Positions 1,111-26,645 of a stretch of 38,162 bases of DNA are shown here, in pieces; the first letter of the stretch is position 1, and every line of letters starts with the position of its first letter. A program made the translations under genes and the position numbers. The stretch covers positions 1 to 38,162 of IMG/VR virus record IMGVR_UViG_3300022934_000059. One strand, given 5' to 3'. The stretch is from a virus. Below the pieces are notes generated by a model, which saw only the letters and a program-made list of their open reading frames with translations, did no database searches and was not told where the DNA came from.

Positions 1111-1692
1111 ATGCCTCGCTGGTTTGAAATTCTAAAAAAAGTGGAATTGATGAGTGAAAACGAGGCTTCAACGCAAATGGAGGCCTTTACGAGAGCCGTT
1201 GAGCGTGGTTATCCTTCTGTTATCACTCCATTGACCTTGGTAGCGAAGGTAAAGGACGGAAAAGTGCTTGGTTTTACCTCTTTTAGTGACATGGGGAAGT
1301 TTTTCTTCGTGGGTTCGTCTTTGGTTTCGCCCGAAGCGAGAGGAACGGGGATTTATGGCGAGGTTATTCGGTATAGGGACACTCAAACGGGTGGAAAACC
1401 GAGAATTACGCTCATTGGGGCAAAAAAACCGGAGCATATTGCGACAGTATCCAAGGTTATTGAGCGTAACAATGGCGTTAAGGTTAATTCGTATGAACAA
1501 GTGCGTGACATTATGGACGAAAGCACTTACAACCAAATGAGAGTGCTTCCTATGTATCGTTATGACGCTCTTGGCGGTAGTCAAGATGTGGAAAAGGTGG
1601 CCGGAGCGGTAACTACATCAAGTGCGGCTCATTCACATCTCTTTAGGCCAACTTACGGCGGTCGTCGTAAGCGGAGAAAGAAGGAGGACTGA
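1111..1692 (+). CDS. GNAT-like acetyltransferase with N-terminal tag
   Basis: 193 aa. Residues 41-110 resemble the core of GCN5-related N-acetyltransferases. A beta hairpin (LVAKVKDGKVLGFTSF) is followed by a strand and then SPEARGTGIYGEVI at about 73-86, which matches the acetyl-CoA pyrophosphate loop R/Q-x-x-G-x-G/A (R77-G-T-G-I) and its helix. The family transfers an acetyl group from acetyl-CoA to amines; the substrate here is unknown. The N-terminus MPRWFEILKK fits the window-wide tag, and the C-terminus (RRKRRKK) is strongly basic. An injected or virion-packaged modifying enzyme is an inference from the tag. Confidence 0.6.
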   Translation: MPRWFEILKKVELMSENEASTQMEAFTRAVERGYPSVITPLTLVAKVKDGKVLGFTSFSDMGKFFFVGSSLVSPEARGTGIYGEVIRYRDTQTGGKPRITLIGAKKPEHIATVSKVIERNNGVKVNSYEQVRDIMDESTYNQMRVLPMYRYDALGGSQDVEKVAGAVTTSSAAHSHLFRPTYGGRRKRRKKED

Positions 1693-1694
1693 AA

Positions 1695-2690
1695 ATGGCG
1701 AAGAAGGTGCAGAAGGTTACGGCGAAGGTCGGGGACGCTACTGTTACTCGTAGTGGTTCCATTACTTTCCCGGAGAAATACAAGAAGTGGGAGTCCACTT
1801 GTCGTAGTTTAGGGCCGGGTTCCATTGGTGGTAAGGTCAATCTTTTGACTTGGTTGAAGCGGCACGGTAAGCCCCGAAGAAAGGGGCCAAACTCAAACGA
1901 TGGTAGTAGCGGTATGGCGGTTACTCTTCAAAACATCAATCGTATTTTGGAAAGCAGGCAGAATGGGATTTACGAAGAGGATGATGTTTTCTCCTTCAAG
2001 GATATTCTAGAAGAAATGGAAGAATATAATGCAGAGGGTAGTAATCTCAATCCTTCCAACATTCCCTTTACCACTTATCCCGTTGACTCCGATGGAGATA
2101 GAATTCCGGATTCGGACCCAAAAACTGTTTTTGGTCACTATTTGACGCCCTACTTCTATGGTAAGTATGGGTCCGATGGCGTTCCTTCTCAAGAAGCCGC
2201 CGCAGAATTCTTCTCTGCGAACAAGAACGAGGCCAATCCTCCCATCAAGCAAGCCATGTTTGGCGGTTCATTGTTCCCTGCTGGAACCGATTTGTATTCC
2301 ATTATTCAGTTGGCCATCAAAGAGATTGAGGATTTACAGTATGACTTGGAGATTCGTTCCGGTCGTTCTCCTGTGGGATTGGTGAATGTTCCTTCGTTTA
2401 GAAAGAAGTTGGGACAGGCTATCAACTCATCTTTGGTTGACGGTAAAATCAGCATTAGTGGTGTCAAGGGCAAGTTGGAAGGTATTCGTTTCCCTATTGC
2501 TACTGAGAAGGAGCAACAATTCGTGGCTGAATACTCCAAGACGAAGAACATTGCAGGTGACTTCAAGGCTTTCAAGTTGGTTTCAATGACGCCTGCAAAC
2601 ACGAAGCGTTTGATTGAAACTTACATGGCGACGGGTAAGGGCAAAGAGCGTGATATTGTCAAGTCGTGGGTTGATTTGGTGAGAGTATGA
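1695..2690 (+). CDS. Unknown 331-aa protein with DxDxDG calcium loop
   Basis: Not recognised. The N-terminal third is basic (KVQKVTAKVG, WLKRHGKPRRKGP). Near residues 131-142 it carries DSDGDRIPDSDP, the Asp-rich loop seen in thrombospondin type-3/dockerin-like calcium-binding repeats that are common in archaeal surface proteins. Only one copy is present. An internal FSFKDILEEMEE at about residue 98 recalls the KDIL core of the tag, though it is not N-terminal and may be coincidence. The C-terminal 150 residues look alpha/beta without visible catalytic residues. It overlaps the next gene by 4 bp (ATGA). Confidence 0.7.
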   Translation: MAKKVQKVTAKVGDATVTRSGSITFPEKYKKWESTCRSLGPGSIGGKVNLLTWLKRHGKPRRKGPNSNDGSSGMAVTLQNINRILESRQNGIYEEDDVFSFKDILEEMEEYNAEGSNLNPSNIPFTTYPVDSDGDRIPDSDPKTVFGHYLTPYFYGKYGSDGVPSQEAAAEFFSANKNEANPPIKQAMFGGSLFPAGTDLYSIIQLAIKEIEDLQYDLEIRSGRSPVGLVNVPSFRKKLGQAINSSLVDGKISISGVKGKLEGIRFPIATEKEQQFVAEYSKTKNIAGDFKAFKLVSMTPANTKRLIETYMATGKGKERDIVKSWVDLVRV

Positions 2691-3340
2691 GAAGAAAGAG
2701 TTGCGCCTTTTGTCAACACGAAGATGTTGATGAGTTAGAGCGAGCCTTGGATGCTTGTGAAATCTCTTGCGATACTTTGGACGAGCAAGAGGGATGGCGT
2801 AGCGGGACTTCTGCTCAACACCAAAGAAACCACATGGAGGCTTTTGCGGCAAGTAGCAATCCCAAGTGCAACTTCTGTGTTGACCCTATGCGAAAGCAAT
2901 ACGAGGTGGGTCTTAGTGACGGTAAATTGGAAACCTCTGTTGTGGCCGATATGCTGAGTGTTTCCAAACAACAGGTTCAGCGCCACATGAAGCACCACTT
3001 GGCTCCTATTGTGCAAGAGTCAGCCGCTACTATCATCGCTAAGAAAGAGGTCAATGAGGTTGACATGTTGGCTAACAACCTTGAGGTGCTTGATGGCAAA
3101 CTTACAGAGATTGCTTCAAGGGATGATTTGGATTCCAAAGAGTTGGATTCTTTGGTTAAATTAGCGAGAGAGATTCGTGAGTCATTGAAATACATGATGG
3201 AGTTTAAGGGCAAACTTGTGCATAAGCGTCAAGATACTATTATCGTTGCACAGATGCAAATTGTCCAAGAGGTTCTAGCACAAGGCCATCCGGAAGTTTG
3301 GCTTGATGTTAAGAAGAAGATGCAGGAGAGATTGCAATGA
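2687..3340 (+). CDS. Zinc-finger/HTH protein, candidate small terminase
   Basis: 217 aa. Two tandem modules each have CxxC followed about 36 residues later by HxxxH: C6/C9 with H45/H49, and C61/C64 with H100/H104. The second module contains a clear helix-turn-helix stretch (SVVADMLSVSKQQVQRHMKHH). The C-terminal half is a long helical region that could oligomerise. Sequence-specific DNA binding plus a helical oligomerisation domain upstream of TerL is what a small terminase subunit looks like, but TerL lies 5 kb downstream and no direct TerS signature is visible. A transcription regulator is the main alternative. The start overlaps the upstream stop (ATGA). Confidence 0.55.
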   Translation: MRRKSCAFCQHEDVDELERALDACEISCDTLDEQEGWRSGTSAQHQRNHMEAFAASSNPKCNFCVDPMRKQYEVGLSDGKLETSVVADMLSVSKQQVQRHMKHHLAPIVQESAATIIAKKEVNEVDMLANNLEVLDGKLTEIASRDDLDSKELDSLVKLAREIRESLKYMMEFKGKLVHKRQDTIIVAQMQIVQEVLAQGHPEVWLDVKKKMQERLQ

Positions 3341-3675
3341 GTTGGAAAGAAGTTTTGAAAGCAAAAGTAGGAAGTTACCCCACGGTGTTGGAAGGAAATC
3401 AAATGAGTGAAACTTTGAGGGATGAATTTCAAAGAACTCAATCTATTCAACATAAATACAGGGATAGTCAAACAAAAGACCTGTTTACTTATGGTGAAAA
3501 GAACCCCAAGCATCGTAAGGCCGTTGCACAGGCTAGAAAATTAATTTCGGAACTGATGAGATTAGACCCGACTGCTACAGATGAAGCCGAGAGAATTGAT
3601 TCGCAACTTACCGAGTTATTGGAAAATATGAAGGAAGAATACAATGCACAACTTCCTAGCATTTTTGATATGTAG
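3337..3675 (+). CDS. Tagged helical protein, unknown function
   Basis: 112 aa beginning MSWKEVLKAKVG, a good match to the window-wide tag. The rest is helical and highly charged (HRKAVAQARKLISELMRL, then an acidic helix), with no cysteine and no catalytic motif. The start has the Shine-Dalgarno GGAGAG, and it overlaps the upstream stop by 4 bp. The start region (SD, ATG and first three codons) is nearly identical at DNA level to those of the next two genes. A structural or nucleic-acid-associated internal virion protein is inference from the tag. Confidence 0.72.
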   Translation: MSWKEVLKAKVGSYPTVLEGNQMSETLRDEFQRTQSIQHKYRDSQTKDLFTYGEKNPKHRKAVAQARKLISELMRLDPTATDEAERIDSQLTELLENMKEEYNAQLPSIFDM

Positions 3676-10002: not shown

Positions 10003-11343
10003 ATGATGCCAACTTCTCAAGAATTAGCAGAGGCTAGCGATAAACTTGAAGAGATGGCGGAAGCCCAAGAAGAGGCTGAAAACGATTTGGATAGCCTAAC
10101 TCAATCTCTCAAGAAAAACTTCGTCATTCGTTCCGAGCATGAAATTGTTTCCGAGGTTTGCAAGGAATACAAAATCAACGCTACGCAAGCAAAGAAGATG
10201 GTTGAGGCTTTCCCACCAAAATACACTTTCTATGACCAAAGTATTCCCGATGTGATTAAGACGCTTAGGAAGGAGAGAAGGGGTCTTAAGGGCGATTCTA
10301 GGGAGAAGATGGCCAAGAGCATAGATACCCTTATTGAAGGCTATTCCGAGCATCTAGAGAAGTGCCTAGATAGCATCTATTGGCTCAACCCCTACAAGCA
10401 GACCGTGAGGAAGATGGGCTTCAAAGAAACGGACTTGATTAAACTCCATTCGCTAAAGTCTGCTGATGAAAGGCGAGCCGTTGTTGATGTTCTCTGCAAG
10501 TATTGGGAGGCAGAGTTGGACCGTAATGAAGTCAACTATGGTCGCATTTATGCTCAACTTGACAAGGAAATGAAGATGGCCAAGAGTGAATACAAGAAGT
10601 TGGTTAAGGGAATTTCCGATACGATTTTGCGAAAGAGCATCAAGGACAAGACCAAGGAGTTTATTCTCAAGCAGGTTTGTGCAGAACAAGGTATTAGTGC
10701 TAGGCAAATTCACGACCGTATGCCTTTGCAACTTCATAACCGAAACTCTTGGAACACCATCGCTAAGATTTCCAAGGAGTTGGACATTGTTTCCTTGGAA
10801 GGAAGATACTACAAAGTCAACTCCGAGATTAAGAAGAACATTTGGGCCTACACGGCGGCATTTATTGACTCGGATGGCTACATTACGATGGACCGTAAGC
10901 ACAACCCAAGAGTGGGTTTGATTGCTACAGGAGAGCGTGGTAAGGCGTTCATGCAAGAGATTCACAAGGCTATTGGTTTTGGGAAGTTGCACCTTGACCA
11001 AAAATCTCCACAGGATACTCGCCCGGTCAACCGTTTGAATTTTTATTCGCAGGATGATGTTTACAATTTGTTGACGAAGTGTTTGCCTCATTTTAGAATG
11101 AAGCAAGGCAATGCGAAATTGTTGTTAGAGTTAGTCCGTATCAAGAAAGGCTACAAGAAAGAGCCTTGGTATAAAGAGCGATGTGATGAAATTTTCAAAC
11201 TAATGAAGTGGGAAAATCATCGTGACCATGTTGGGTATGATTTTGCTAGGGAAGGCATTTACATGGATGATATTCAAAAATATAAGGATAACTGTAAAAT
11301 GTCTTTGATGGATGAAAGAGAACAAATTGGGGTGATTCTTTGA
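10003..11343 (+). CDS. LAGLIDADG endonuclease-like protein with helical N-terminus
   Basis: 446 aa. SD GAGGTGAT abuts the start; ATG 10006 is equally possible. Residues 1-215 are helical and charged. Residues about 215-275 resemble a winged-helix domain (ARQIHDRMP, WNTIAKISKELDIVSLEGRYYKV). Residues about 283-385 form a LAGLIDADG-type domain: AAFIDSDGYI is the first motif, with the acidic Asp that binds metal, followed by a strand, a helix and KLLLELVRIKKGY. Only one such motif is obvious, so it may dimerise or be degenerate. Its placement directly after an uninterrupted TerL suggests either a free-standing homing nuclease or a packaging-associated nuclease. Confidence 0.8.
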   Translation: MMPTSQELAEASDKLEEMAEAQEEAENDLDSLTQSLKKNFVIRSEHEIVSEVCKEYKINATQAKKMVEAFPPKYTFYDQSIPDVIKTLRKERRGLKGDSREKMAKSIDTLIEGYSEHLEKCLDSIYWLNPYKQTVRKMGFKETDLIKLHSLKSADERRAVVDVLCKYWEAELDRNEVNYGRIYAQLDKEMKMAKSEYKKLVKGISDTILRKSIKDKTKEFILKQVCAEQGISARQIHDRMPLQLHNRNSWNTIAKISKELDIVSLEGRYYKVNSEIKKNIWAYTAAFIDSDGYITMDRKHNPRVGLIATGERGKAFMQEIHKAIGFGKLHLDQKSPQDTRPVNRLNFYSQDDVYNLLTKCLPHFRMKQGNAKLLLELVRIKKGYKKEPWYKERCDEIFKLMKWENHRDHVGYDFAREGIYMDDIQKYKDNCKMSLMDEREQIGVIL

Positions 11344-12557: not shown

Positions 12558-12824
12558 ATGTGCGAAACCCATTGGGAAGACATTCTGTATAAGGGATGGG
12601 TGGCTTGTCCTTGTCCTAAGAAAGGAAGGCCAAAACCTTGTGGCAGACCGGATGCTTCGGTAGGAAAGAAAAGAAGATGCCGTCCAACATGTGACGCTTG
12701 CAAAGATTACCCTAGAAGGATGGGTAAGAGAGGAAAGCCCAAAAAAAGAAAGGCCGGGACTTTTAGAGCAGAGAAAAAGTATGGGCTTCGTGGTTGGTTA
12801 CAAAGAAGAGGCGGTAAAGAATGA
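12558..12824 (+). CDS. Cys-rich basic protein with partial tag
   Basis: 88 aa from ATG 12558. An in-frame ATG at 12531 lies within the previous gene and is less likely. N-terminus MCETHWEDILYKGW carries the WEDIL core of the tag shifted by three residues. It has nine cysteines, including CPCP, PCGRP and CRPTCDAC, and a very basic tail (KRGKPKKRKAGTFRAEKKYG) ending GLRGWLQRRGG. Similar GWVxxPCPKKGxxxPCGR patterns occur in marine phage proteins that also carry DUF5872-like modules; this is from memory. Probably zinc-binding, DNA-associated by charge. Confidence 0.65.
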   Translation: MCETHWEDILYKGWVACPCPKKGRPKPCGRPDASVGKKRRCRPTCDACKDYPRRMGKRGKPKKRKAGTFRAEKKYGLRGWLQRRGGKE

Positions 12825-13300
12825 AGTGGAAAGATATTTTGAAGATTTCTCGTTTGGAGTTGGAAATCGCTAGAGAGTATGCGCCGGAGGAGTTGGCTAA
12901 GAGAGGAAGAAAAGTCACTCGTCCGGATTCTAAGAGGCTCAAAGGTCGTCCTATGAGTCGCTTTAATGAAGAAGACGCAAATAGGGCGAAAAGAGAAAGA
13001 GATAAAATTATGAGCAGAGGGAAAGCCCTAAGAGAAGCAGAAGAAGCGAGGCAGAAGGCATTGGAAGAATATCGCAACTCTCCGGAGGCCAAGAAAACAC
13101 AGAAATACGGAAAGGTGATGTGTCGGGATTGCGGCTCAGAATACTATGCTGATGATAATTTTAAAGGTAAATGTGATGGCGGGGATAGTTACACCAATAA
13201 TTACGGAGGCAAAGACGGTGGTTGCGGAGCCGAAGGCGATGATATGTTTACTGTTGTTGAACAAGGCGAAATGGGTAATACCGAGAGATACATGAGGTAG
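12821..13300 (+). CDS. Tagged protein with C-terminal zinc ribbon
   Basis: 159 aa starting MKWKDILKISRL, a clear tag with K at position 2. Residues 15-95 are highly charged and helical (ANRAKRERDKIMSRGKALRE). The C-terminal 60 residues form a candidate zinc ribbon: CRDCGSEYYA, then CDGGDSY, GGCGAEGDD. The organisation tag, basic helix and zinc ribbon suggests a nucleic-acid-binding internal protein. The start ATG overlaps the upstream TGA. No named family recognised. Confidence 0.72.
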   Translation: MKWKDILKISRLELEIAREYAPEELAKRGRKVTRPDSKRLKGRPMSRFNEEDANRAKRERDKIMSRGKALREAEEARQKALEEYRNSPEAKKTQKYGKVMCRDCGSEYYADDNFKGKCDGGDSYTNNYGGKDGGCGAEGDDMFTVVEQGEMGNTERYMR

Positions 13301-13305
13301 TGATT

Positions 13306-13824
13306 ATGTCATGGGAAGATATTCTAAAGCAACCTGCGCTAACCCCTCAAGAGGAACAAGAGATTCAATCCATGATGCGATTTAGAAACATGGATAGGGA
13401 ATCTGCGGAGAAGTCTGTTAGGCGTAAGTATGGTAAGTTGGGGCAAGTGAGGCAACCTGTAGGTAGGTTGACGAAAGAGGATATTCTAAAGCGAAAGCCC
13501 AAGTCCGGCCCTAGAGAAGCCGCTCGTAAGAGAATGAAGGCTAAGGGGCTAAGGTCGTTCAATAAACCGCAACGCCTCAACGATGATTCGGATAAATCGC
13601 ACCATGTCATGGCTTCCGAAGGTGGGAAATACAAATACATCAAGTTCGGACAGAAGGGCGTCAAGACCAATCAAACTGCTGGACAACGCAGAGCCTTCAA
13701 GTCACGCCATGCAAAGAATATCAAGCGTGGAAAAATGTCTGCGGCTTATTGGGCTGATAAGGTCAAGTGGAATCCAAGCAAGACCAAAGAGAAGAAGAAC
13801 AAGAAATGGCGGAAGGGTTCGTGA
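13306..13824 (+). CDS. Tagged basic protein with internal second tag (DUF6321-like)
   Basis: 172 aa from ATG 13306, preceded by GAGGTAGTGA; GTG 13300 is an in-frame alternative. N-terminus MSWEDILKQPAL. A second copy of the core, TKEDILKRKP, occurs at residues 56-64. The C-terminal 75 residues (GGKYKYIKFGQKGVKTNQ, QRRAFKSRHAKNIKRGKMSA, YWADKVKW) match from memory a basic domain of phage and giant-virus proteins, probably the one Pfam calls DUF6321; its role is unknown. Strong positive charge suggests DNA contact. Overlaps the next gene by one base. Confidence 0.75.
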   Translation: MSWEDILKQPALTPQEEQEIQSMMRFRNMDRESAEKSVRRKYGKLGQVRQPVGRLTKEDILKRKPKSGPREAARKRMKAKGLRSFNKPQRLNDDSDKSHHVMASEGGKYKYIKFGQKGVKTNQTAGQRRAFKSRHAKNIKRGKMSAAYWADKVKWNPSKTKEKKNKKWRKGS

Positions 13825-14204
13825 TGTGGAAAGATGTTTTGAAAGCACCCTTTGATACTAGGGAATATGAAGAGGCTACTTTTTCTATGGCTGGTTTAAG
13901 GAAGTTCCTAGTTGAGTTCCTAGACGAGCGGATTAGAGGCGCAATAAGGACACGGCGAAGGCCAAGAAGAGATGAAGACGGTAGGACATATACAGTAACG
14001 ATAAACAAATACAATCTTAATCGTAAGGATTCGGAAAATTTGGGTAAACTGCTAAGAAAGGACCGAACAGATTTCACCGAGAGAGTGAAAAAGATATTTA
14101 GAGAAGAATACAACATGGTTAATGTCAAATTTAACCGAGGGCCTTGGTATGAAGACCACTATGGGGTTCTTGAGTTTACCTTCCAAATCAAGGATGGGCT
14201 TTGA
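13824..14204 (+). CDS. Tagged basic protein, unknown function
   Basis: 126 aa from ATG 13824; GTG 13821 is also in frame. N-terminus MWKDVLKAPFD is the tag without Ser2. Residues 25-60 contain an Arg cluster (RGAIRTRRRPRRDEDG) followed by a beta strand (TYTVTINKYNL). The C-terminus ends with a strand pair (GVLEFTFQIKDGL), so a small alpha/beta domain is likely. No catalytic motif. It is the last gene of the small tagged cluster before the portal. Confidence 0.7.
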   Translation: MWKDVLKAPFDTREYEEATFSMAGLRKFLVEFLDERIRGAIRTRRRPRRDEDGRTYTVTINKYNLNRKDSENLGKLLRKDRTDFTERVKKIFREEYNMVNVKFNRGPWYEDHYGVLEFTFQIKDGL

Positions 14205-16385: not shown

Positions 16386-18068
16386 ATGTCTTACATGGAT
16401 ATTCTCAAACTCAAAGTCGTTAGCGAAGAGGCTAGGGCTGAGATTCTTGATGAATTATCCCGTGAATTAGTTATCGCTGAGAAAGGAAAGAACGGTGTTT
16501 TTAGGTCCGGCAAGGCCGAGGACCGAGAATCAGTTACGAGTGAATTTAATAGCATTCTAAGGTCCATTGAATCAAATCTAAATTCCGTTATTCAGTCTAA
16601 CGAATATGCTAAAGATAGAGGTGAGGAAACACAACCCGAAGCAATGTTTAGAGGCAAAAGCATCCCATTAGATTCTAATGAAGATGATTTGAAGGCTCTT
16701 GCTCTAGAATTACTTATTGAAAGAATTAGAGAGGATATAGAAGAAACCAAAAATGCAGGAATAATGCAACCTATATCTAGAGATACCGGCCCCAAACCAA
16801 ACCTCACTCCTAGGGAAGCAACTTCCGAAGAACAAAAGAAGCGAGTTGAAGAACAAATCAATTCTACAATCAAAGAAGGGGGAGGTAAGAGTGAATTCAA
16901 TTACGGACTCTTGGAAGAACAAATCAACAATCTTCTAGATGTAGAGGACTTCTTGCAATACTTAGAAGAGGGTCGCTCTACCGTCTATCGTAAGAAAATC
17001 GGAATGGTTGTTGAGAGCGCAACCAAAGTCTTTGATTTGTTTGGTTCTCTACTCAAGAGCGGTTCGGATATTAGTGCTATCCTCAAGACAATCCTTGAGG
17101 AGTTAAAGGAAACTGAAAGGAAAGCCACTAACCTTTTGTCTGAAGATAAATTCAAAAAGCACCCCTATGATGCTGGTGTTCTTCGTGAGTCAATGAAGGC
17201 AATCCAAGATTATCTCCGATTTAGAGTTCAAACCTCAAAGGATTATCACACCCTTACAACGAGGACCGTTAAGGTGCTTAGAAACCTCGCTGAATTTGTA
17301 GATAGTGCTTGGAAACACTCTGTTGGAAGGGGACCTATCAGCCTAGATTACAATCTTTTAGGGGACAGTCTTTCGGAACAAAAAAACAATTTTTCTTTCT
17401 TGAAGATTCTTGCTAGGAATGACCAAGAACACATGTATCGCTACGCCCCACAGAATAAGAACATCTTGATGAAACTTGTTGATATGAAAGGTAAGGGTAA
17501 GAGATACATCAAACATAGACCCGGCAAAGGGGAATCTTTATCCAAAAAACAAGAAAATCAAAACAAGTTGTATGATAAATACCTCAACTTAGGTGTTGAA
17601 ATTACAAGTGCCTTTACCGATTTCGTTGAAGGACCCGATAAGGACGAAAAATCTGCAAGCAAATTTCTTCAAGATTTGGAAAGTCAAGGGTTTAAGCAAA
17701 GAAAGGTTGCGAGTAAGACAGAATATAAATTCGTTCATGAAGACGAGAAGGCAACTTTCACAACACCTGCGGGCAAAGTCTACAAAGTCGGTGATGTAAT
17801 TGATGCCGAAGAGTATCTTGCTCTTATTGAAGAATACAATCCAAAAGACACTCTTCTTGATTACATTGCTAACCAATACAAGAGAGATGAAGGCCGCATT
17901 CTAGATGTGCAAATGGATAGAAAGTTGCAAGGCCAACTAAGCCAACTCAAGCGCAAAATTGACTCTATGCTTTCTTCTAGAATGGAAGAAAGGCCCGACC
18001 TTGAAATGAATGTGCCAACTACATTTAAAGATATTAGAGAACAGAGGCTCAAAGAAGAGGAGGAATAA
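16386..18068 (+). CDS. Tagged 560-aa helical protein
   Basis: 560 aa from ATG 16386, following GGTGAGG. N-terminus MSYMDILKLKVV is the tag with Tyr in place of Trp. It is the largest tagged protein. Mostly helical, with acidic coiled-coil stretches (TPREATSEEQKKRVEEQIN), a central helical region (LTTRTVKVLRNLAEFVDSAW), and a basic patch (GKGKRYIKHRPGKGE). No catalytic motif. Position between portal and protease is where phages often encode internal core or scaffold-associated proteins; this with the tag makes a major prohead-core component a reasonable guess. Confidence 0.72.
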   Translation: MSYMDILKLKVVSEEARAEILDELSRELVIAEKGKNGVFRSGKAEDRESVTSEFNSILRSIESNLNSVIQSNEYAKDRGEETQPEAMFRGKSIPLDSNEDDLKALALELLIERIREDIEETKNAGIMQPISRDTGPKPNLTPREATSEEQKKRVEEQINSTIKEGGGKSEFNYGLLEEQINNLLDVEDFLQYLEEGRSTVYRKKIGMVVESATKVFDLFGSLLKSGSDISAILKTILEELKETERKATNLLSEDKFKKHPYDAGVLRESMKAIQDYLRFRVQTSKDYHTLTTRTVKVLRNLAEFVDSAWKHSVGRGPISLDYNLLGDSLSEQKNNFSFLKILARNDQEHMYRYAPQNKNILMKLVDMKGKGKRYIKHRPGKGESLSKKQENQNKLYDKYLNLGVEITSAFTDFVEGPDKDEKSASKFLQDLESQGFKQRKVASKTEYKFVHEDEKATFTTPAGKVYKVGDVIDAEEYLALIEEYNPKDTLLDYIANQYKRDEGRILDVQMDRKLQGQLSQLKRKIDSMLSSRMEERPDLEMNVPTTFKDIREQRLKEEEE

Positions 18069-18070
18069 TC

Positions 18071-18418
18071 ATGTGGGAAAGAATTCTCAAAGAAGATGTG
18101 CGAAAGGAATACAGTCCGGTGCTTGACACCTTGGATGAAAAGAAGCGAAAGAAACTCAAGAAGACTCTGCAATCCACAGAGCCTACAGAGTATTTCGGAC
18201 AAGACTTTACTCGCCTTGGTGAGTTGATTGACATGCTCAAGGAATTAGAGTTTGTCAAATCGGACGAAAAACTCAACAAGAGATTCAAGTCCATTGACGA
18301 AAGGAACATTGATATGTTGGCCCTCTCTAGCAAACTCCGTAAGGAATACGAGTTGTTGTATCGCCAACTTCGGGAAATCGTTTATCCAAAGAGAAAGGGG
18401 GATTTGAGAGATGAGTGA
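18071..18418 (+). CDS. Tagged helical protein
   Basis: 115 aa starting MWERILKEDVRK, the tag without Ser2. The rest is a charged helical protein with probable coiled coil (LGELIDMLKELEFVKSDEKL; LSSKLRKEYELLYRQLREIV). It has no Cys and no catalytic motif. It starts 2 bp after the 560-aa tagged gene, preceded by GAGGAGG, and its stop region overlaps the next gene by 8 bp. Confidence 0.7.
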   Translation: MWERILKEDVRKEYSPVLDTLDEKKRKKLKKTLQSTEPTEYFGQDFTRLGELIDMLKELEFVKSDEKLNKRFKSIDERNIDMLALSSKLRKEYELLYRQLREIVYPKRKGDLRDE

Positions 18419-18635
18419 TACACAAGAAGAAATGTTGGGCGTGTTGAAGGCATTGGTTGAGCGTATTCAGTCGCTTGAGAAGACCGTGTATCATCAAGAC
18501 AATTTGTTGATGAAGTCCGGATTTGTTGTTGCTCAAACTCCTGTTCCTTCTATGACTGCATCTACTATGCCTACAGATGATATGATTCACAAAATGTCGT
18601 GGGACGACATTGAAAGATTTGTGAACGGACGGTGA
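18411..18635 (+). CDS. Small coiled-coil protein with C-terminal MSW motif
   Basis: 74 aa. Residues 1-35 are a coiled coil (EEMLGVLKALVERIQSLEKT). The middle is a Pro/Thr/Ser-rich linker. Residues 62-74 read MSWDDIERFVNGR and end the protein. This aligns closely with the last 14 residues of the protease/scaffold protein encoded 2.8 kb downstream. Here the tag is C-terminal rather than N-terminal. A small scaffold or adaptor that shares the protease's C-terminal docking element is a reasonable hypothesis. Confidence 0.72.
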   Translation: MSDTQEEMLGVLKALVERIQSLEKTVYHQDNLLMKSGFVVAQTPVPSMTASTMPTDDMIHKMSWDDIERFVNGR

Positions 18636-18876: not shown

Positions 18877-21414
18877 ATGGCCTCTGCTGGTTTGATGGTG
18901 GGCAAGGTCAAAGCGCCTGCCTCGGATGAAATTCTTTCTCTCTTTGAGAAGGTCCGAGTTGCTTACCTTTCAGCCAAAGAAGACAAGAAAGAATATGGCG
19001 GTCGTTGGAGAAACGCCTTAGAAGAAATTGAAGAAGCCTTTGACTCTCTTTCCATTCTAGGGAAGGAATTGAAGAATTTCTTGGACGAAAGGCATCTTAA
19101 CGACGATGATGCAAAAGACCCGGAAAGCACAACTGCTCGTATTATTTACGAGGCTATCAAAGATATGCGCTTTGAATCCGACAAGGTGCAAGACCCATTC
19201 GCAGACCGTTTTAAGGGCGATGTGTTGGAAGCATTACTCAGCGATATTGGCATGATGGTGAAATTTATTCACTATGCTATTCGTTCCGATGATAAAGCAT
19301 TATCGGGGAAGTTCTACGAATCTAAAGAGTTGCAACCGGATGAGATTACGAATGGTTTAGATGGTCTTGACTTAGAAGTTGATGATGTTCCTCTTTACAT
19401 CATTGAACATTATGGCGACGATAAAGATTCTAGAAAAGTAGAATCTCAATACAAGAAAGCCAAAGCAATTCTTGATGAAATGATTCTTTCCGAATCTTCC
19501 GAAGAGGAATTAGAAGAATTGGAAGAAGTGGATTTGCATAAGGCAGAAAAATCCGAAAAGGAAAAGGCCGTAAGTCAATTCATTATTCCAAACAAGCCGA
19601 TGTATCGTATCTTTGATATTGACGACATGAAGGAACTTAAAGGATTCAGCGGAGAATATGTTGTTCAAGAAAAATACGATGGTATGCGTATTCAAATTCA
19701 TAAGATTGACAACAAGGTTCAAATTTTCTCCTACAACAAGAAAGACATTACAGAGAAGTGTTCTTCTCAAGTCAAGGAGTTGCAAAAGAAATCCTACGGT
19801 GATTGCATCCTTGATGCAGAACTGATTTTGTTTGATGGGGACAAGGCCCTCCATCGTGCCGATACAGTAGCCCATGTTTTCCAAAATAAATACAAAGAGG
19901 CTAGACTCCGAGCGCATGTTTTTGATATTATGCGCCATGAGGCTCAAGACCTTACGGATACGCCTCTGCGTGACCGAATCAACATTCTCTTCAACAATTA
20001 TGCCGTTAAGTCGTCTTCGGATTTGGTCTTCCCTTCAAAGAAGGATACGAGGATTGCTGACTCCTTGAAGGACATTGACGATTACGCCAAGGAAATTATG
20101 GACATGCCTACGGCAGAAGGCGTGGTCATTAAGGACATTGAATCTACTTATTTCATCGGGACAAAGAAGAATCCAAAGTGGATTAAGTGGAAGAAGTTTG
20201 TTGATTTGGACATGTTGGTTTTGGATAAGAAATCAACAAAGTCGGGCTTGTATTCCTACTCTCTTGGCGCTGGTCCCGTTGCTGATGAAGACGAGGGCAA
20301 GCACATTGTAGAATACGAAGGCCGACGATACATGAATGTTGGAAAGGCACTTAACACCAAGATTAAGGCAGATGTTGGACAAATCATTCGTGTGAAGGTT
20401 GACGAGGTTAGAGAAGATAAAGGAAGATTTACCCTCTATTCGGCTAAGGTTGTAGAGGTTCCCGAAGTGGAATTACCGGATAAGATTGTCACTTTACAGA
20501 TGCTTTCGGGAGATACTAAGCCTTCTATCAAATACAAGGCATTGTCCTTGAAGAAAGGCATTGGTATTACTGATGGTATTCATGGAACTGCAATGATTAT
20601 TGCAAAGAGTATGGATGGGTTTACTATTTACGGTTTCCAAGAGAATAATCTCATGGCTAAGAATGCTCTCCAAGACTTGGACATGTGGAAACAAGAAGCG
20701 GAGCAGATGATGAAAACAATGCAGAGTAATGTTCGCTCCGCCGTTATTCGTTATGTCAAGGACGCCACTTCTAGAAATAAAGAAGTGACAGTCAAAGAGT
20801 TGGATGAATTCTTATCCCGCAACTATGCTAATGAGTATTCTAGTTTGTTTGAGAACAAGCAAGACTTCCTTAAATTCCTTAAGGGGCAAAAAGAATTGAG
20901 TCATTTCTTGGATGCTAGTGAATACATTACTGTGCGGGGCAACAAAGTCTTTGTTGATGAGAGTGTTTTACAAAAAGAAGAGGAGCCGTCTAAATTCAAG
21001 GTGTATCTTCGTAAAGATGGCAACTTGAATTTCTCTGTTCGTCATAAAGGTGAGAATCTTATGTGGACGATTGACTTACAGACCGACGATGACATTTTCT
21101 CTTTGTTCGGTAAAGCAGTCAAGTATCCTGCTGAGATTTCCGAACAACAAGATACTCATGACCTCTTAGATGAAGGCGATGTTACCGTTGGCGTCCAACG
21201 GCATGGCTACCACGAATACATCTTGAATGGAAACAAGTTTGAAACCAAACTACACTTCCGAGTTGTAGACATGAAGGGAGAGAAAACTTGGATTGCTTGG
21301 ACGGGCTATGAGCAAGACCCTGTTGACCCCGATACAGATGAAGGGGTATGGAATATCTATAATGATAAATTCAAAAGTATAAAATTGGATAAAAATACGG
21401 ATAAGGTTAAATAG
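18877..21414 (+). CDS. ATP-dependent DNA ligase with large N- and C-terminal extensions
   Basis: 845 aa. The nucleotidyltransferase core begins near residue 235: motif I EKYDGMR with K266 as the adenylated lysine, motif III LDAELILFD near 310-318, motif IV AEGVVIKD near 413-420 and motif V WIKWKKF near 437-443. An OB-fold (VGQIIRVKVDEVRED, RFTLYSAKVVEV) follows to about 535. The KYDGMRIQIHK sequence is archaeal-like. Residues 1-230 are a helical acidic region unlike normal ligase DNA-binding domains. The C-terminal 150 residues (LRKDGNLNFSVRHKG, VGVQRHGYHEYILNG) faintly resemble a LigD-type phosphoesterase fold, unproven. It seals nicks in DNA. Location among capsid genes is unusual. Confidence 0.9.
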   Translation: MASAGLMVGKVKAPASDEILSLFEKVRVAYLSAKEDKKEYGGRWRNALEEIEEAFDSLSILGKELKNFLDERHLNDDDAKDPESTTARIIYEAIKDMRFESDKVQDPFADRFKGDVLEALLSDIGMMVKFIHYAIRSDDKALSGKFYESKELQPDEITNGLDGLDLEVDDVPLYIIEHYGDDKDSRKVESQYKKAKAILDEMILSESSEEELEELEEVDLHKAEKSEKEKAVSQFIIPNKPMYRIFDIDDMKELKGFSGEYVVQEKYDGMRIQIHKIDNKVQIFSYNKKDITEKCSSQVKELQKKSYGDCILDAELILFDGDKALHRADTVAHVFQNKYKEARLRAHVFDIMRHEAQDLTDTPLRDRINILFNNYAVKSSSDLVFPSKKDTRIADSLKDIDDYAKEIMDMPTAEGVVIKDIESTYFIGTKKNPKWIKWKKFVDLDMLVLDKKSTKSGLYSYSLGAGPVADEDEGKHIVEYEGRRYMNVGKALNTKIKADVGQIIRVKVDEVREDKGRFTLYSAKVVEVPEVELPDKIVTLQMLSGDTKPSIKYKALSLKKGIGITDGIHGTAMIIAKSMDGFTIYGFQENNLMAKNALQDLDMWKQEAEQMMKTMQSNVRSAVIRYVKDATSRNKEVTVKELDEFLSRNYANEYSSLFENKQDFLKFLKGQKELSHFLDASEYITVRGNKVFVDESVLQKEEEPSKFKVYLRKDGNLNFSVRHKGENLMWTIDLQTDDDIFSLFGKAVKYPAEISEQQDTHDLLDEGDVTVGVQRHGYHEYILNGNKFETKLHFRVVDMKGEKTWIAWTGYEQDPVDPDTDEGVWNIYNDKFKSIKLDKNTDKVK
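21373..21384 (+). promoter_or_regulatory. Candidate archaeal promoter for protease/capsid genes
   Basis: AAAAGTATAAAA: a purine-rich stretch that could act as a BRE, followed by TATAAAA at 21378-21384. It lies in the AT-rich 3' end of the ligase gene, about 60 bp before the protease start, which would give a leader of about 30-40 nt. The capsid genes that follow should need strong expression. Evidence is sequence resemblance only. Confidence 0.35.
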
Positions 21415-21442: not shown

Positions 21443-22612
21443 ATGTCTTCCATCGTTAAGGCTGACACTCATGAGGATTTCAAAATCATCAAGAGCGACA
21501 AACTAATGATTGGGGGATATGCTTCTATTGAAATGGTGGACAAGCAAAACGACCTCATTACTTTAGAGTCATTGAAAGAAGCCGTTAAAAAATTCATGGA
21601 GCAGAAGAGTTTTCGGAATGTAATGACCAATCACTCAAATGTTCAAGTCGGAGAAGTAATTGACAGTTACAGAGATACAAGCGGGAGGCTATGGAAAACA
21701 GAAGTGGATGATGTTGGCTTCTTCGTAGTGATTAAACTCCGTGATGATATTGAAAAAGCAAAAGAAATTGGACGAGGCATTCGCAAAGGAACATTGAGGT
21801 CTTTTAGCATAGGAGGACAGGCGCTACAGAAAGTGAAAAAGCGAAGTGAAGAGTTGGGCGAATACAACGAGATTAGCAAACTTGAACTTCATGAAGTGAC
21901 CATCTGTGAAAAAGGAATCAACCCCGAAGCGAAATTTGACATTTTGAAACAACAAAAGGTGAAAGACATGACGAAATTGGAAAAAGCATTGGCGGAATTG
22001 GACACTCTCTTAGCAGAAGTGAACACTCTCCGTAAGGAAGAAGAAGAACCCGCTATGGAAAACATGGCCGGAGAAGAAGAAGAAATGATGGATATTGAGT
22101 CCTACGAGCGAGCAGAAAAGGGCGCAAAGCCTACTGTTGACGGTGGCTCTTTGGAAACCGGCGAGCCAGCAGACCTTGTTGTGGTGTCCGGTGGCCGACC
22201 AACCGGTTCCTCTCAAGCCGCAGAGGAAGGCAAGGTTAGCAAAGCCTTTGACAACAACGAGTTCGGAACGCTCAACCTCTCTAACGAGAACATTGAGAAG
22301 GCTTACGCACAATTCCGTGCCGAGCAGATGGAAGAGTTGGCTCTCAAGAACCTTGAGTCCACCTTCGCTAAGAGATTTGAGGCTGAGATGGCTAACCGTG
22401 AAGAAATGGTTGCTAAGTCGGAATACGATGCTCAGTCCGAGATTGCTTCTCTCCGAGAGCAATTCTCTTCGCTCCGCAAGTCGTTAGAGAACGGCGCACA
22501 AGAAATTCGCAAGGCTAACGAAGCCGCCCAAGAAACCACGGCCCTTTCCTTGGATGAGGTCGCTGAAATGTCTTGGAGCGACATTCACAAGATGGCCAGC
22601 GGAAACTATTGA
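21443..22612 (+). CDS. Prohead protease/scaffold fusion with C-terminal MSW motif
   Basis: 389 aa from ATG 21443 (GAGGAG nine bases upstream; TTG 21434 less likely). Residues 1-175 are a phage prohead protease of the XkdF/U35 type: IGGYASIEMVDKQNDLI, MTNHSNVQVG (H64, likely catalytic), IKLRDDIEKAKEI and GTLRSFSIGGQ (S122, likely nucleophile), then KLELHEVTICEKGINPEA. Residues 180-375 are acidic and helical, like a fused delta/scaffold domain. The last 14 residues, MSWSDIHKMASGNY, match the window-wide tag. It would direct capsid assembly and then digest the scaffold. It sits just upstream of the capsid gene, the usual order. Confidence 0.9.
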   Translation: MSSIVKADTHEDFKIIKSDKLMIGGYASIEMVDKQNDLITLESLKEAVKKFMEQKSFRNVMTNHSNVQVGEVIDSYRDTSGRLWKTEVDDVGFFVVIKLRDDIEKAKEIGRGIRKGTLRSFSIGGQALQKVKKRSEELGEYNEISKLELHEVTICEKGINPEAKFDILKQQKVKDMTKLEKALAELDTLLAEVNTLRKEEEEPAMENMAGEEEEMMDIESYERAEKGAKPTVDGGSLETGEPADLVVVSGGRPTGSSQAAEEGKVSKAFDNNEFGTLNLSNENIEKAYAQFRAEQMEELALKNLESTFAKRFEAEMANREEMVAKSEYDAQSEIASLREQFSSLRKSLENGAQEIRKANEAAQETTALSLDEVAEMSWSDIHKMASGNY

Positions 22613-22623
22613 GGTGATGAAAA

Positions 22624-23955
22624 ATGGGTTACATTAACACGATTAGAGATTTAGAAGCAGCAACTTACGGACTACCAAACTTCGGTGGCAACTCCTTGCT
22701 TAAGCAAGCAGGTGTTGTGCAGGGCCTTCACACGGCTCACGACACCGCCGAAGCAGGAGCAAGCGGTGTTTCCGCTATTGGCTCCACCGCAGGCATGTAT
22801 AATGTCGTCTACGGACAAAAGGTTTGGTCTATGCTGAACCGTGAAGTCAACGCCCTCGCTATGCTCTCCAAGAGAGCCTACACTTCCAGCGGTTGGCGAA
22901 TCCTCAAGAGTCGTCCCTTCGGTGGTAGTGGCGCTACTCTTACCTTGCAAAGCGACGGCACGGGCGGTGGCATTGGTTCCGACGACCCACAAGCAGACGA
23001 GATTGGTGGTGTTCCTGAGAACGGTGGCCTCTCTACTGCCGCTGACGGTCTTGGTAGCATGGCTCCAACCTACGCTCAACTCTTCATGAGTCCAAAGACT
23101 GTGGCTCATCAGTTTGACATTTCTGAACTTGCTATGGAAATGGCTCAAATTGACGATGGCCTCGGTGACATTCGGGCTATCATCCGTGAAGACATGGGTA
23201 AGGCTCACGCAGAAGCACAAAACAAGATGCTGGTTATGCCTCTTGAGTTCTACGGTGAAACCTCTGCTCTTGGTAACATTGAGCGAAACTACACCTCGCT
23301 CTTGAAGATTGTTTCAAGCCGAGATGAAATTCTTGCTTTGGACAATGGCGTTCTCGCTACTGATGTTGCTTCCGCTACCAACAACCTCGGTAAAATCTAC
23401 GGCGAGGAGCGATTTACTGCCGCTTCTTTCCTTGACTCCGAAGTTGACTCCGGAACCTACGCCGCTTCTTCGGTTCGTGCTTTGACGCTGACCAAGATTA
23501 ACGACATGATTCGCCGTCTGCGAGTCGCTGGTGGTTCGCCTAAGGTTATTCTTACGGGCTACGATACCATCCAAGCAATCGCTGACTTGCTCCAAGCACA
23601 AGAGCGTTTCATGGACCGCAAGGAAGTTATTCCTACCGTGAACGGCGTTCGTGGTATCAAGGGTCAAGAAGTTGGTTTCCGTGTGGCTACCTACTACGAC
23701 ATTCCTCTCATCCCTGTGAAGGAAATGACCTCCACCACCAACTCGGCTGACACCGGTATTAGCGACATGCTTTTCCTTGACACGGACCATCTTTGGCTCC
23801 AAGTCATGAAGCCTACGCAATACTTTGAAGACGGTATTTCCAACGGGAACCCATTCGGTGTGGGTCGCCTTGGGAACCAAGCCCTTTACCGCACCATTGC
23901 GGAAACGGGTTGTTCCTTCTTCTTGGGCCAAGGCAAGATTACGAACATCGCTTGA
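22624..23955 (+). CDS. Major capsid protein, HK97-fold
   Basis: 443 aa, SD GAGGTGAT. Identified by position after the protease, size and sequence: an N-terminal region, then VWSMLNREVNALAMLSKRA, a Gly-rich loop (SDGTGGGIGSDDP) and GSMAPTYAQLFMSPKTVAHQFDIS, which matches the transition to the spine-helix and P-domain of HK97 capsids. The C-terminal part (VILTGYDTIQAIADLLQAQE, MFLDTDHLWLQVMKPTQYFEDG) fits the A-domain and closing strands. Codons are GC-richer and more uniform than in neighbours, consistent with high expression. It forms the icosahedral shell. It lacks the tag. Confidence 0.92.
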   Translation: MGYINTIRDLEAATYGLPNFGGNSLLKQAGVVQGLHTAHDTAEAGASGVSAIGSTAGMYNVVYGQKVWSMLNREVNALAMLSKRAYTSSGWRILKSRPFGGSGATLTLQSDGTGGGIGSDDPQADEIGGVPENGGLSTAADGLGSMAPTYAQLFMSPKTVAHQFDISELAMEMAQIDDGLGDIRAIIREDMGKAHAEAQNKMLVMPLEFYGETSALGNIERNYTSLLKIVSSRDEILALDNGVLATDVASATNNLGKIYGEERFTAASFLDSEVDSGTYAASSVRALTLTKINDMIRRLRVAGGSPKVILTGYDTIQAIADLLQAQERFMDRKEVIPTVNGVRGIKGQEVGFRVATYYDIPLIPVKEMTSTTNSADTGISDMLFLDTDHLWLQVMKPTQYFEDGISNGNPFGVGRLGNQALYRTIAETGCSFFLGQGKITNIA

Positions 23956-25572: not shown

Positions 25573-26235
25573 ATGTCCCTTCTTACCGGCTTTGCGGTAG
25601 TCATTACAGAAGCCGCTATTGCCTTCTACAAGAAAATACACGCAATCAATTTCGGAGTTTACGGCGCTACAATGGTTGGAAAGACGACACTACATCATCA
25701 ATTACGAACAAGAGGTGAGGTCGCTCAAATCAAAGAACGAACAGTAGGCCTACACAGAGCCACAAGAAAGGTCGTCAAGATTGACGGAGAAGCCCATACA
25801 CTACGCACTTCCGATGTTGGAGGAGAGTCCATCTATTGGAAGGAATGGATGAAGGACATTAAATCTAGAAGGGTGAAATACATCATCTTCATGATTGACC
25901 ACCGACACTTGGATAGTGGCGCTAATCTAGACCATCAACTCGCATGGAAGTTTCTTGTAGACGGTATTTGTTCAACGAGATGGCCTAACGGTAAGAAGAA
26001 AAAGGAAGAGGATTACCCCTTAGCGATTGGCCTTTGGGCAAACAAATACGACATTTGGGGTGAAAAGCACAAACATGATGGCGAGATTAGCGACCATCCT
26101 ATCTTCAAACCGTTTCAATACGGAATGCAAAAACTAAATGAACGAGGAATACCGACACATAAATACATAGTTTCGGCTAAATCGCAACCCGAAATGGTTT
26201 ATCGTGGCGTTACGACGATGATTAAGGACTACTGA
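25573..26235 (+). CDS. Ras/Arf/MglA-like small GTPase
   Basis: 220 aa. All five G-box motifs are visible: G1 GATMVGKTT (31-39), a likely G2 Thr at T57, G3 SDVGGE (80-85, D-x-G-G), G4 NKYD (157-160), and G5 SAK (201-203). The spacing and size fit the Ras superfamily fold; G3 lacks the Trp seen in Arf (WDxGGQ), and its Glu replaces the catalytic Gln. Residues 1-20 form a hydrophobic helix (LLTGFAVVITEAAIAFYKK) that could anchor it to membrane. GTP hydrolysis would switch an unknown effector. Two membrane proteins precede it directly. Small GTPases are very rare in tailed viruses. Confidence 0.88.
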   Translation: MSLLTGFAVVITEAAIAFYKKIHAINFGVYGATMVGKTTLHHQLRTRGEVAQIKERTVGLHRATRKVVKIDGEAHTLRTSDVGGESIYWKEWMKDIKSRRVKYIIFMIDHRHLDSGANLDHQLAWKFLVDGICSTRWPNGKKKKEEDYPLAIGLWANKYDIWGEKHKHDGEISDHPIFKPFQYGMQKLNERGIPTHKYIVSAKSQPEMVYRGVTTMIKDY

Positions 26236-26240
26236 TTGTT

Positions 26241-26645
26241 ATGTGGAAAAGCATTCTAAAATCAATCCCAAACTATTACATCGGTGACGATGATTGGATG
26301 GACCTTATGCCTAGTGATTTTAATATAGAGGCGTATAAAAATAAACAATATGAAGAAAAATACGAGGCAAATTATCCACTAATGGTAGTTCCTGATGAAA
26401 AATTTGCAAATAAGGCTCTAAGAAGCAGATATGACTTCAACATGCAAGATGAAACAAGGGAATTATTTACAAATATGAAGGACATAGAACCTGTAGTGGT
26501 GATGGAGTTACTAAATGAAGACGGTTCTGTGTTTGATAGAATATTAGTAGCGGGACACCTGCGTTCTCACCTAAGAGGGTTAGCCGGACATAAAACTATA
26601 CCTACAATCGTTTTAACTATGAAAGAAAAACAATGGAGAGGATAA
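26241..26645 (+). CDS. Tagged possible ParB-fold protein
   Basis: 134 aa starting MWKSILKSIPNY, a clear tag. The C-terminal 60 residues (DIEPVVVMELLNEDG, DRILVAGHLRSHLRGLAGHKT, IPTIVLT) recall the ParB/sulfiredoxin-like nucleotide-binding fold, in which a G-H-x-R box follows a strand and leads to a conserved I-P-x-x-V strand. The resemblance is by eye only. Those proteins bind or hydrolyse nucleotides or DNA. AT content is higher than in neighbouring genes. It follows the GTPase after 5 bp. Confidence 0.55.
   Translation: MWKSILKSIPNYYIGDDDWMDLMPSDFNIEAYKNKQYEEKYEANYPLMVVPDEKFANKALRSRYDFNMQDETRELFTNMKDIEPVVVMELLNEDGSVFDRILVAGHLRSHLRGLAGHKTIPTIVLTMKEKQWRG

Follow-up and report, generated by a model that had tools for sequence, protein, structure and literature searches.

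The protein encoded directly ahead of the gene for the major capsid protein in the 38,162-nucleotide stretch of viral DNA analysed here (the window) ends in a short Trp-centred peptide, the core of which recurs at the start of many other predicted proteins. This locus hence raises the question of whether the scaffold tail and the N-terminal tags belong to the same process, and of whether that process is prohead assembly.

A conserved tail closes the protease/scaffold protein

The features of the head module on which the analysis centres are:

18411..18635, + strand: candidate mini-scaffold, 74 aa, with a coiled-coil-like N-terminus and tail MSWDDIERFVNGR (18594-18632)
21443..22612, + strand: S78 prohead protease/scaffold fusion, 389 aa, with a protease domain (~20-176), a coiled coil (281-363) and a C-terminal tail
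22568..22612, + strand: C-terminal tail MSWSDIHKMASGNY plus stop
22624..23955, + strand: major capsid protein of the HK97 type, sharing 25% identity with that of haloviruses HCTV-1/5

The 389-aa translation of 21443-22612 (+) ends in AEMSWSDIHKMASGNY, with LDEVAEMSWSDIHKMASGNY as the residues closing on the stop codon, in agreement with an earlier note on this DNA that had placed an MSWxDI-type motif at the end of the protease/scaffold. The coordinates assigned there to the tail (22571-22612) were shifted by 3 nt, including the stop and dropping the Met codon; the last 14 residues, MSWSDIHKMASGNY, occupy 22568-22609, and the stop codon 22610-22612. The protease was identified by matches to Pfam Peptidase_S78 (E=5.6e-10) and to the PHROG head maturation protease family (E=1.2e-14), and it presents the arrangement of S78/scaffold proteins in the Caudoviricetes, with an S78 domain, a coiled-coil C-terminal half and a location 11 nt ahead of the capsid gene. 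A predicted model of the protein, of low overall confidence, outlined a long helix (281-363), a break and two tail helices (370-374 and 378-385) with pLDDT values of 61-68. A read-through chain from L008, with the stop codon rendered as Trp and the tail placed directly before the capsid protein, reached a pLDDT of 33 and, as a single chain, was uninformative.

Searches with the capsid protein matched 562 IMG/VR stretches, and the best 80 of these 562 were taken as the set of relatives. The tail was present at the end of the ORF preceding the capsid gene in 79 of the 80; the sole exception (L035) has no more than 41 bases ahead of the capsid gene, its protease being cut off by the contig end. 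In an alignment of 51 sequences, Met376 and Trp378 are invariant, Asp380 is conserved in 48 and the residues just before are variable. All eight of the more divergent proteases, which were fetched via the N-terminal tag alone, end in M-x-W-x-[DE]-[IVL]-[HN]. An extreme C-terminal, predicted helical element of the kind described for P22 and herpesvirus scaffolds is hence conserved across orthologues (79/80 loci and 8/8 divergent records), and the proposal of the earlier note, which had been made to depend on this conservation, withstood the comparison.

A tail of the same kind was identified in a second protein. The 74-aa product of 18411-18635 terminates in HKMSWDDIERFVNGR and has an orthologue in 9/9 genomes (the window and eight near-complete relatives, the genes of which were called with our own script); in one of these, Phe stands in place of Trp. 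Homology between this tail and that of the protease was assumed, and the two may not represent independent cases. In the Methanofastidiosa virus vir519 (L251:8986-11385), the protein encoded before the capsid gene ends in GKMTTEEIERQFGGE, which resembles the mini-scaffold tail without its Trp; a search for relatives with which to compare this vir519 end returned none.

The window fits a magrovirus-like virus, matched by published description, and its presumed host follows from this assignment. The Magrovirales, viruses of Poseidoniales, have been described as having genomes of 90-110 kb with two oppositely transcribed modules and a Druskaviridae-related capsid protein (PMC12999244, PMC10768690). 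The complete or near-complete relatives of the window span 84-99 kb and present two oppositely transcribed strand blocks, features that, together with the identity of the capsid protein to those of HCTV-1/5, are those expected of this order. One relative of twice the usual size (L061, record G010, 184,733 bases) contains two protease copies, each 67% identical to that of the window, and perhaps represents two joined virus genomes.

N-terminal tags are restricted to late-strand genes

For gene counts, a tag was defined as M-x(0-2)-W-x-x-[IVL]-[ILVM]-[KR], with M-x-W-x-x-[IV]-L-K as its core form. In the eight relatives, 123 of 510 late-strand genes start with a tag, versus 1 of 477 early-strand genes (Fisher p=1.6e-37, a value that overstates independence, since genes share their history within a genome and genomes share descent). 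The effect is seen on the late strand of every genome, with 12-21 tags each, and the tags cluster near head genes. The association of tags with head genes is well supported, and tagged proteins are encoded together with late and head genes, as expected of a capsid-targeting sequence (CTS) of the T4 or P1 kind. The tag consensus is [STN]-W-[KEQ]-[DNE]-I-L-K, with K in 95% of instances, even though the pattern behind the logo did not require it. Beyond position +5 (counting from Trp) no conserved residues were found after the tag, nor was a conserved scissile position or protease site seen.

The tagged proteins of the window, together with related candidates, are as follows:

1111..1692, + strand: N-tagged protein, MPRWFEILK, with weak, below-cutoff GNAT similarity only
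1695..2690, + strand: 331-aa protein with a putative C-terminal cargo tag, KSWVDLVRV before the stop, at 2661-2687; like ends in the equivalents of 8/9 genomes
3337..3675, + strand: N-tagged protein, MSWKEVLK, 112 aa
3687..3938, + strand: N-tagged protein, MSWEKIIK, 83 aa
3949..4113, + strand: N-tagged protein, MSWIEVVK, 54 aa
4113..4316, + strand: N-tagged protein, MDWKSVVK, 67 aa with this start codon
11340..11849, + strand: N-tagged protein (TTG start), SWEDILK, 169 aa
11849..12199, + strand: N-tagged protein, MSWQNVLK, 116 aa
12373..12552, + strand: N-tagged basic protein (GTG start), SWKDILK, 59 aa
12558..12824, + strand: basic Cys-rich protein with a candidate degenerate N-tag, MCETHWEDILYKG; W lies 5 residues past Met, outside the strict definition
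12821..13300, + strand: N-tagged protein, MKWKDILK, 159 aa
13306..13824, + strand: N-tagged basic protein, MSWEDILK, 172 aa, with internal relic LTKEDILK at 13468-13491
13824..14204, + strand: N-tagged protein, MWKDVLK, 126 aa
15899..16156, + strand: N-tagged protein, MNWKKILK, 85 aa
16386..18068, + strand: large protein of ~560 aa with a W-to-Y tag variant, MSYMDILK
18071..18418, + strand: N-tagged protein, MWERILK, 115 aa, with an orthologue in 9 genomes
26241..26645, + strand: N-tagged protein, MWKSILK, 134 aa, encoded shortly after the capsid gene

In other genomes, the large protein in the place of 16386-18068 starts with MWQNLLK, MQSWDSILK, MSYSEILR or MSFMDILK. The terminase, portal, capsid, ligase and tail-tube genes of the window lack the tag, and searches for phage homologues of the Cys-rich protein (12558-12824) identified none.

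The exact DNA pattern for MSW[KE]DILK was detected in at least 120 IMG/VR stretches, 108 of them with proteins of this virus group, and in 257 Gb of cellular genomes it gave 8 matches, which look like chance. Among 14 records fetched with the tag (not a random sample, as they were picked partly because 8 of their loci had no match to the gene set), the eight with the protease carry 2-16 tags, all on the protease strand, and the six without it carry one tag each. No tags were found in HCTV-1, vir519 or four bacterial phages. HCTV-1, which has a related capsid protein, lacks both tail and tags, so that heads of this type do not require the device.

Tagged proteins are diverse, and the tag is modular

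Tagged proteins are mostly small, and for the majority no family is known. Comparison of 137 of them with Pfam and PHROGs returned scattered weak matches only (EF-hand, zinc finger, DUF5754); five members showed a weak match to part of the long profile for 'minor head protein and DNA pilot' (phrog_220), which was not relied on. No homologue in the other seven genomes was found for 66 of 118 tagged proteins. Among small proteins, lack of such a homologue was observed for 54% of the tagged versus 20% of the untagged late proteins (p=8e-10), and tagged proteins are also more basic, with a median net charge per residue of +0.020 versus -0.019 for untagged late proteins. A short N-terminal peptide is hence common to otherwise unrelated proteins (123 strict tags in 8 genomes), as in CTS systems of the T4 and P1 kind.

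The pattern W-x-x-[IVL]-[ILVM] was also observed in excess at the extreme C-terminus of late proteins (14 instances versus 1.9 expected, p=2e-8), with 4 instances versus 1.6 expected in early proteins. Most of this excess stems from a single ~330-aa protein (1695-2690 in the window), which is tagged in eight genomes. These data provide good evidence that the signal may be placed at the C-terminus, and do not imply that it frequently is.

The protein encoded at 13306-13824 illustrates the mobility of the tag. Marine phages of bacteria encode untagged, stand-alone proteins that match its C-terminal domain at up to 74% identity. Its relatives start with MSWEDILL at the point where the relic LTKEDILK sits, and the G003 orthologue begins there. 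The protein has hence gained an upstream N-terminal segment with its own tag, the old tag being left as an internal relic. Since a fresh tag and a relic coexist in this protein and its domain occurs untagged in bacterial phages, the tag is a module.

The claim that the core motif of the tail is common to many tagged proteins was thus correct, and these are confined to late, head-proximal genes. The connection drawn by the earlier note between tags and prohead assembly gains from the conserved tail and from the location of the protease/scaffold gene directly upstream of the capsid gene, with entry into the prohead itself remaining putative. The note had overlooked the second tail, at the end of 18411-18635, as well as the cargo tags at C-termini and the restriction to one strand.

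Tag and tail share a core and differ downstream of it

A profile derived from 142 N-terminal tags was scored against the 182,407 internal 8-mers of the nine proteomes. Scaffold tails scored among the best, that of the window ranking 3rd (tied 3-6 with three orthologues), which exceeds chance. Met and Trp contribute part of this score: with these two columns removed, the tail of the window remained in the top 0.2%, and the tails of some other clades were unremarkable. Tags present L at +4 and K at +5 in every clade, whereas tails present H, N or E at +4; K at +5, which the tags retain, is lost from the tails of divergent clades. Tail and tags are thus related in a core, M-x-W-x-[D]-I, without being identical or tightly co-varying. 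Because they differ at +4/+5 and do not co-vary, a groove shared by tail and tags is rated below the broader proposal of capsid targeting.

Alternative explanations

The reading that we consider probable is that the tail is the scaffold's capsid docking peptide, and that its core has been reused as a portable tag bringing late proteins into the prohead. The consistent differences at +4/+5 and the lack of co-variation between clades would also suit a capsid-targeting tag that docks elsewhere, on the scaffold core, the portal or the protease domain, its likeness to the tail being that of any generic Trp-anchored amphipathic helix. T4 internal proteins are indeed described as encapsidated into the precursor scaffolding core (PMC3012670). 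Such a helix, however, has no need of M-x-W-x-D-I, the tail is among the top handful of 182,407 positions, and its invariant Met at -2 coincides with the start Met of the tags, all of which makes this alternative unlikely, if still worth serious consideration. It has also been suggestive that the T4 CTS is tied to proteolytic processing, at least in the title of Mullaney and Black 1996, as cited in PMC9024508, and that the tail is located on the protease itself. On this view, the tag would mark substrates for recognition or cleavage by the prohead protease, which would process itself at the tail. Yet the residues past +5 are unconserved, so that no conserved scissile position follows the tag, and a tail at the extreme C-terminus leaves few residues to cleave; a cleavage signal is accordingly very improbable.

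Other readings detach the tag from the head. Lysis and takeover functions are also encoded among late genes, for most tagged proteins no family is known and the motif could conceivably form a membrane-binding amphipathic helix. The tag might hence send late proteins to the host membrane, chaperone, ribosome or protein-turnover machinery, with the likeness to the scaffold tail due to chance or to the same host factor. The co-occurrence of tags and this protease on one strand in the tag-selected records, and the presence of the motif at the end of two scaffold-like proteins encoded close to the capsid gene in 9/9 genomes, speak against such a host target, which we deem quite improbable. Most copies lie exactly at start codons, as would be the case for a translation or mRNA element, or for a start region copied from gene to gene. 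Synonymous codons, however, vary freely at the I, L and K of the tag, pointing to selection at the protein level, and the motif is also found at extreme C-termini and in scaffold tails. Because of this variation and these C-terminal copies, the RNA and copied-DNA readings were rejected as barely credible; tandem duplication accounts for few cases only.

Proposed mechanism and comparison with known systems

Under the preferred reading, of a docking peptide reused as a tag, the scaffold would comprise a long coiled coil, a variable linker and a short helix centred on the invariant Met-x-Trp-x-Asp-Ile, which would dock it on the capsid side, and a second small coiled-coil-like protein would bear a like tail. 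In each genome, the virus would reuse the core M-x-W-x-x-I-L-K on 12-21 fast-changing late proteins, at their N-terminus or sometimes at their C-terminus. As the prohead assembles, the tag would draw these proteins to the inside of the shell or into the core of the scaffold, enclosing them ahead of DNA packaging, and the enclosed proteins could reach the next host with the genome. The data suggest, rather than prove, that the tag is a shipping label loading proteins into the head before DNA; prohead entry, docking on the capsid protein, sharing of the scaffold's site and delivery to the host are steps that we infer. A magrovirus cargo code in the full sense, with the scaffold docking peptide naturally copied onto either end of a large and quickly exchanged set of proteins, is conceivable and somewhat doubtful. 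Any late protein that gained the motif would then compete with the scaffold for its site, be packed into the head and enter the archaeal host by injection, and the motif would define an effector repertoire carried by the virus.

By analogy, the tag would be a capsid-targeting signal like the CTS of T4 or P1, perhaps operating by mimicry of the scaffold's coat-binding tail. The internal proteins of T4 are a diverse defence set with only the targeting sequence in common (PMC3012670), and hence the fast turnover of tagged proteins fits this comparison. In both systems a short conserved N-terminal peptide is found on diverse, fast-changing proteins; in T4 it directs them into the prohead before packaging, as it putatively would here, and other cargo can be attached (PMC3012670). 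In contrast with T4, the signal here is Trp-centred (M-x-W-x-x-I-L-K), is also used at the C-terminus and shares its core with the end of the scaffold; no conserved cleavage site was seen, the viruses are archaeal and 12-21 proteins are tagged per genome. The likeness is drawn from the published description of the T4 CTS. In P1, an N-terminal signal within the first 30 residues of DarB is enough to bring a reporter inside the capsid; the Dar proteins lack a shared consensus (PMC9024508), whereas here a single consensus covers >100 proteins.

On the scaffold side, the C-terminal coat-binding helices of the P22 scaffold load fused cargo into the head (PMC9962691), and they likewise form an extreme C-terminal helical element following a helical scaffold. 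Their sequence is unrelated, and their use for cargo is engineered, whereas tagging here is apparently natural and coat binding putative. Herpesvirus scaffolds also bind the capsid protein by their C-termini, and UL26 and VP22a (UL26.5) similarly combine a protease-scaffold fusion with a second protein of the same C-terminus (PMC12474303). They differ in that UL26.5 arises from an internal start of the same gene, unlike the separate 74-aa gene found here, in the protease family and in that natural cargo tags are not described there (PMC12474303).

Implications and further observations

If the proposal holds, one short motif would reveal from sequence alone which proteins travel inside the virion, sorting hundreds of family-less genes into 'packaged' and 'not packaged'. 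It would indicate where to look first for anti-defence proteins that archaeal viruses inject, and offer a natural tag with which protein cages could be loaded. The loading of cargo would also be coupled directly to the contact between scaffold and capsid, a link that was engineered in P22 and of which we know no natural use of this sort. Magroviruses are among the most abundant viruses of the ocean and, to our knowledge, none has been grown so far. A literature search, the scope of which did not extend to the two main magrovirus papers, found no report of such a tag, and the words 'motif' and 'N-terminal' are absent from one magrovirus paper.

Several other genes of the window deserve mention. 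Downstream of the terminase, the protein of 10003-11343 includes the stretch AAFIDSDGYITMDRK, which recalls a LAGLIDADG endonuclease domain, for which Pfam gave no confirmation. Within the head module, the mini-scaffold and protease genes flank one for an untagged protein of 845 aa (18877-21414) that has an ATP-dependent DNA ligase domain. Shortly after the capsid gene, two short, apparently membrane-spanning proteins precede a small GTPase-like protein (25573-26235) with weak, below-cutoff matches to Ras/Roc/MMR_HSR1. Elsewhere, L138:1-14008 contains 21 tags in 14 kb, some of them in a tandem array of tagged paralogues that share NIQISSQRTSSKDY after the tag, and a similar array of four tagged paralogues is present in G006.
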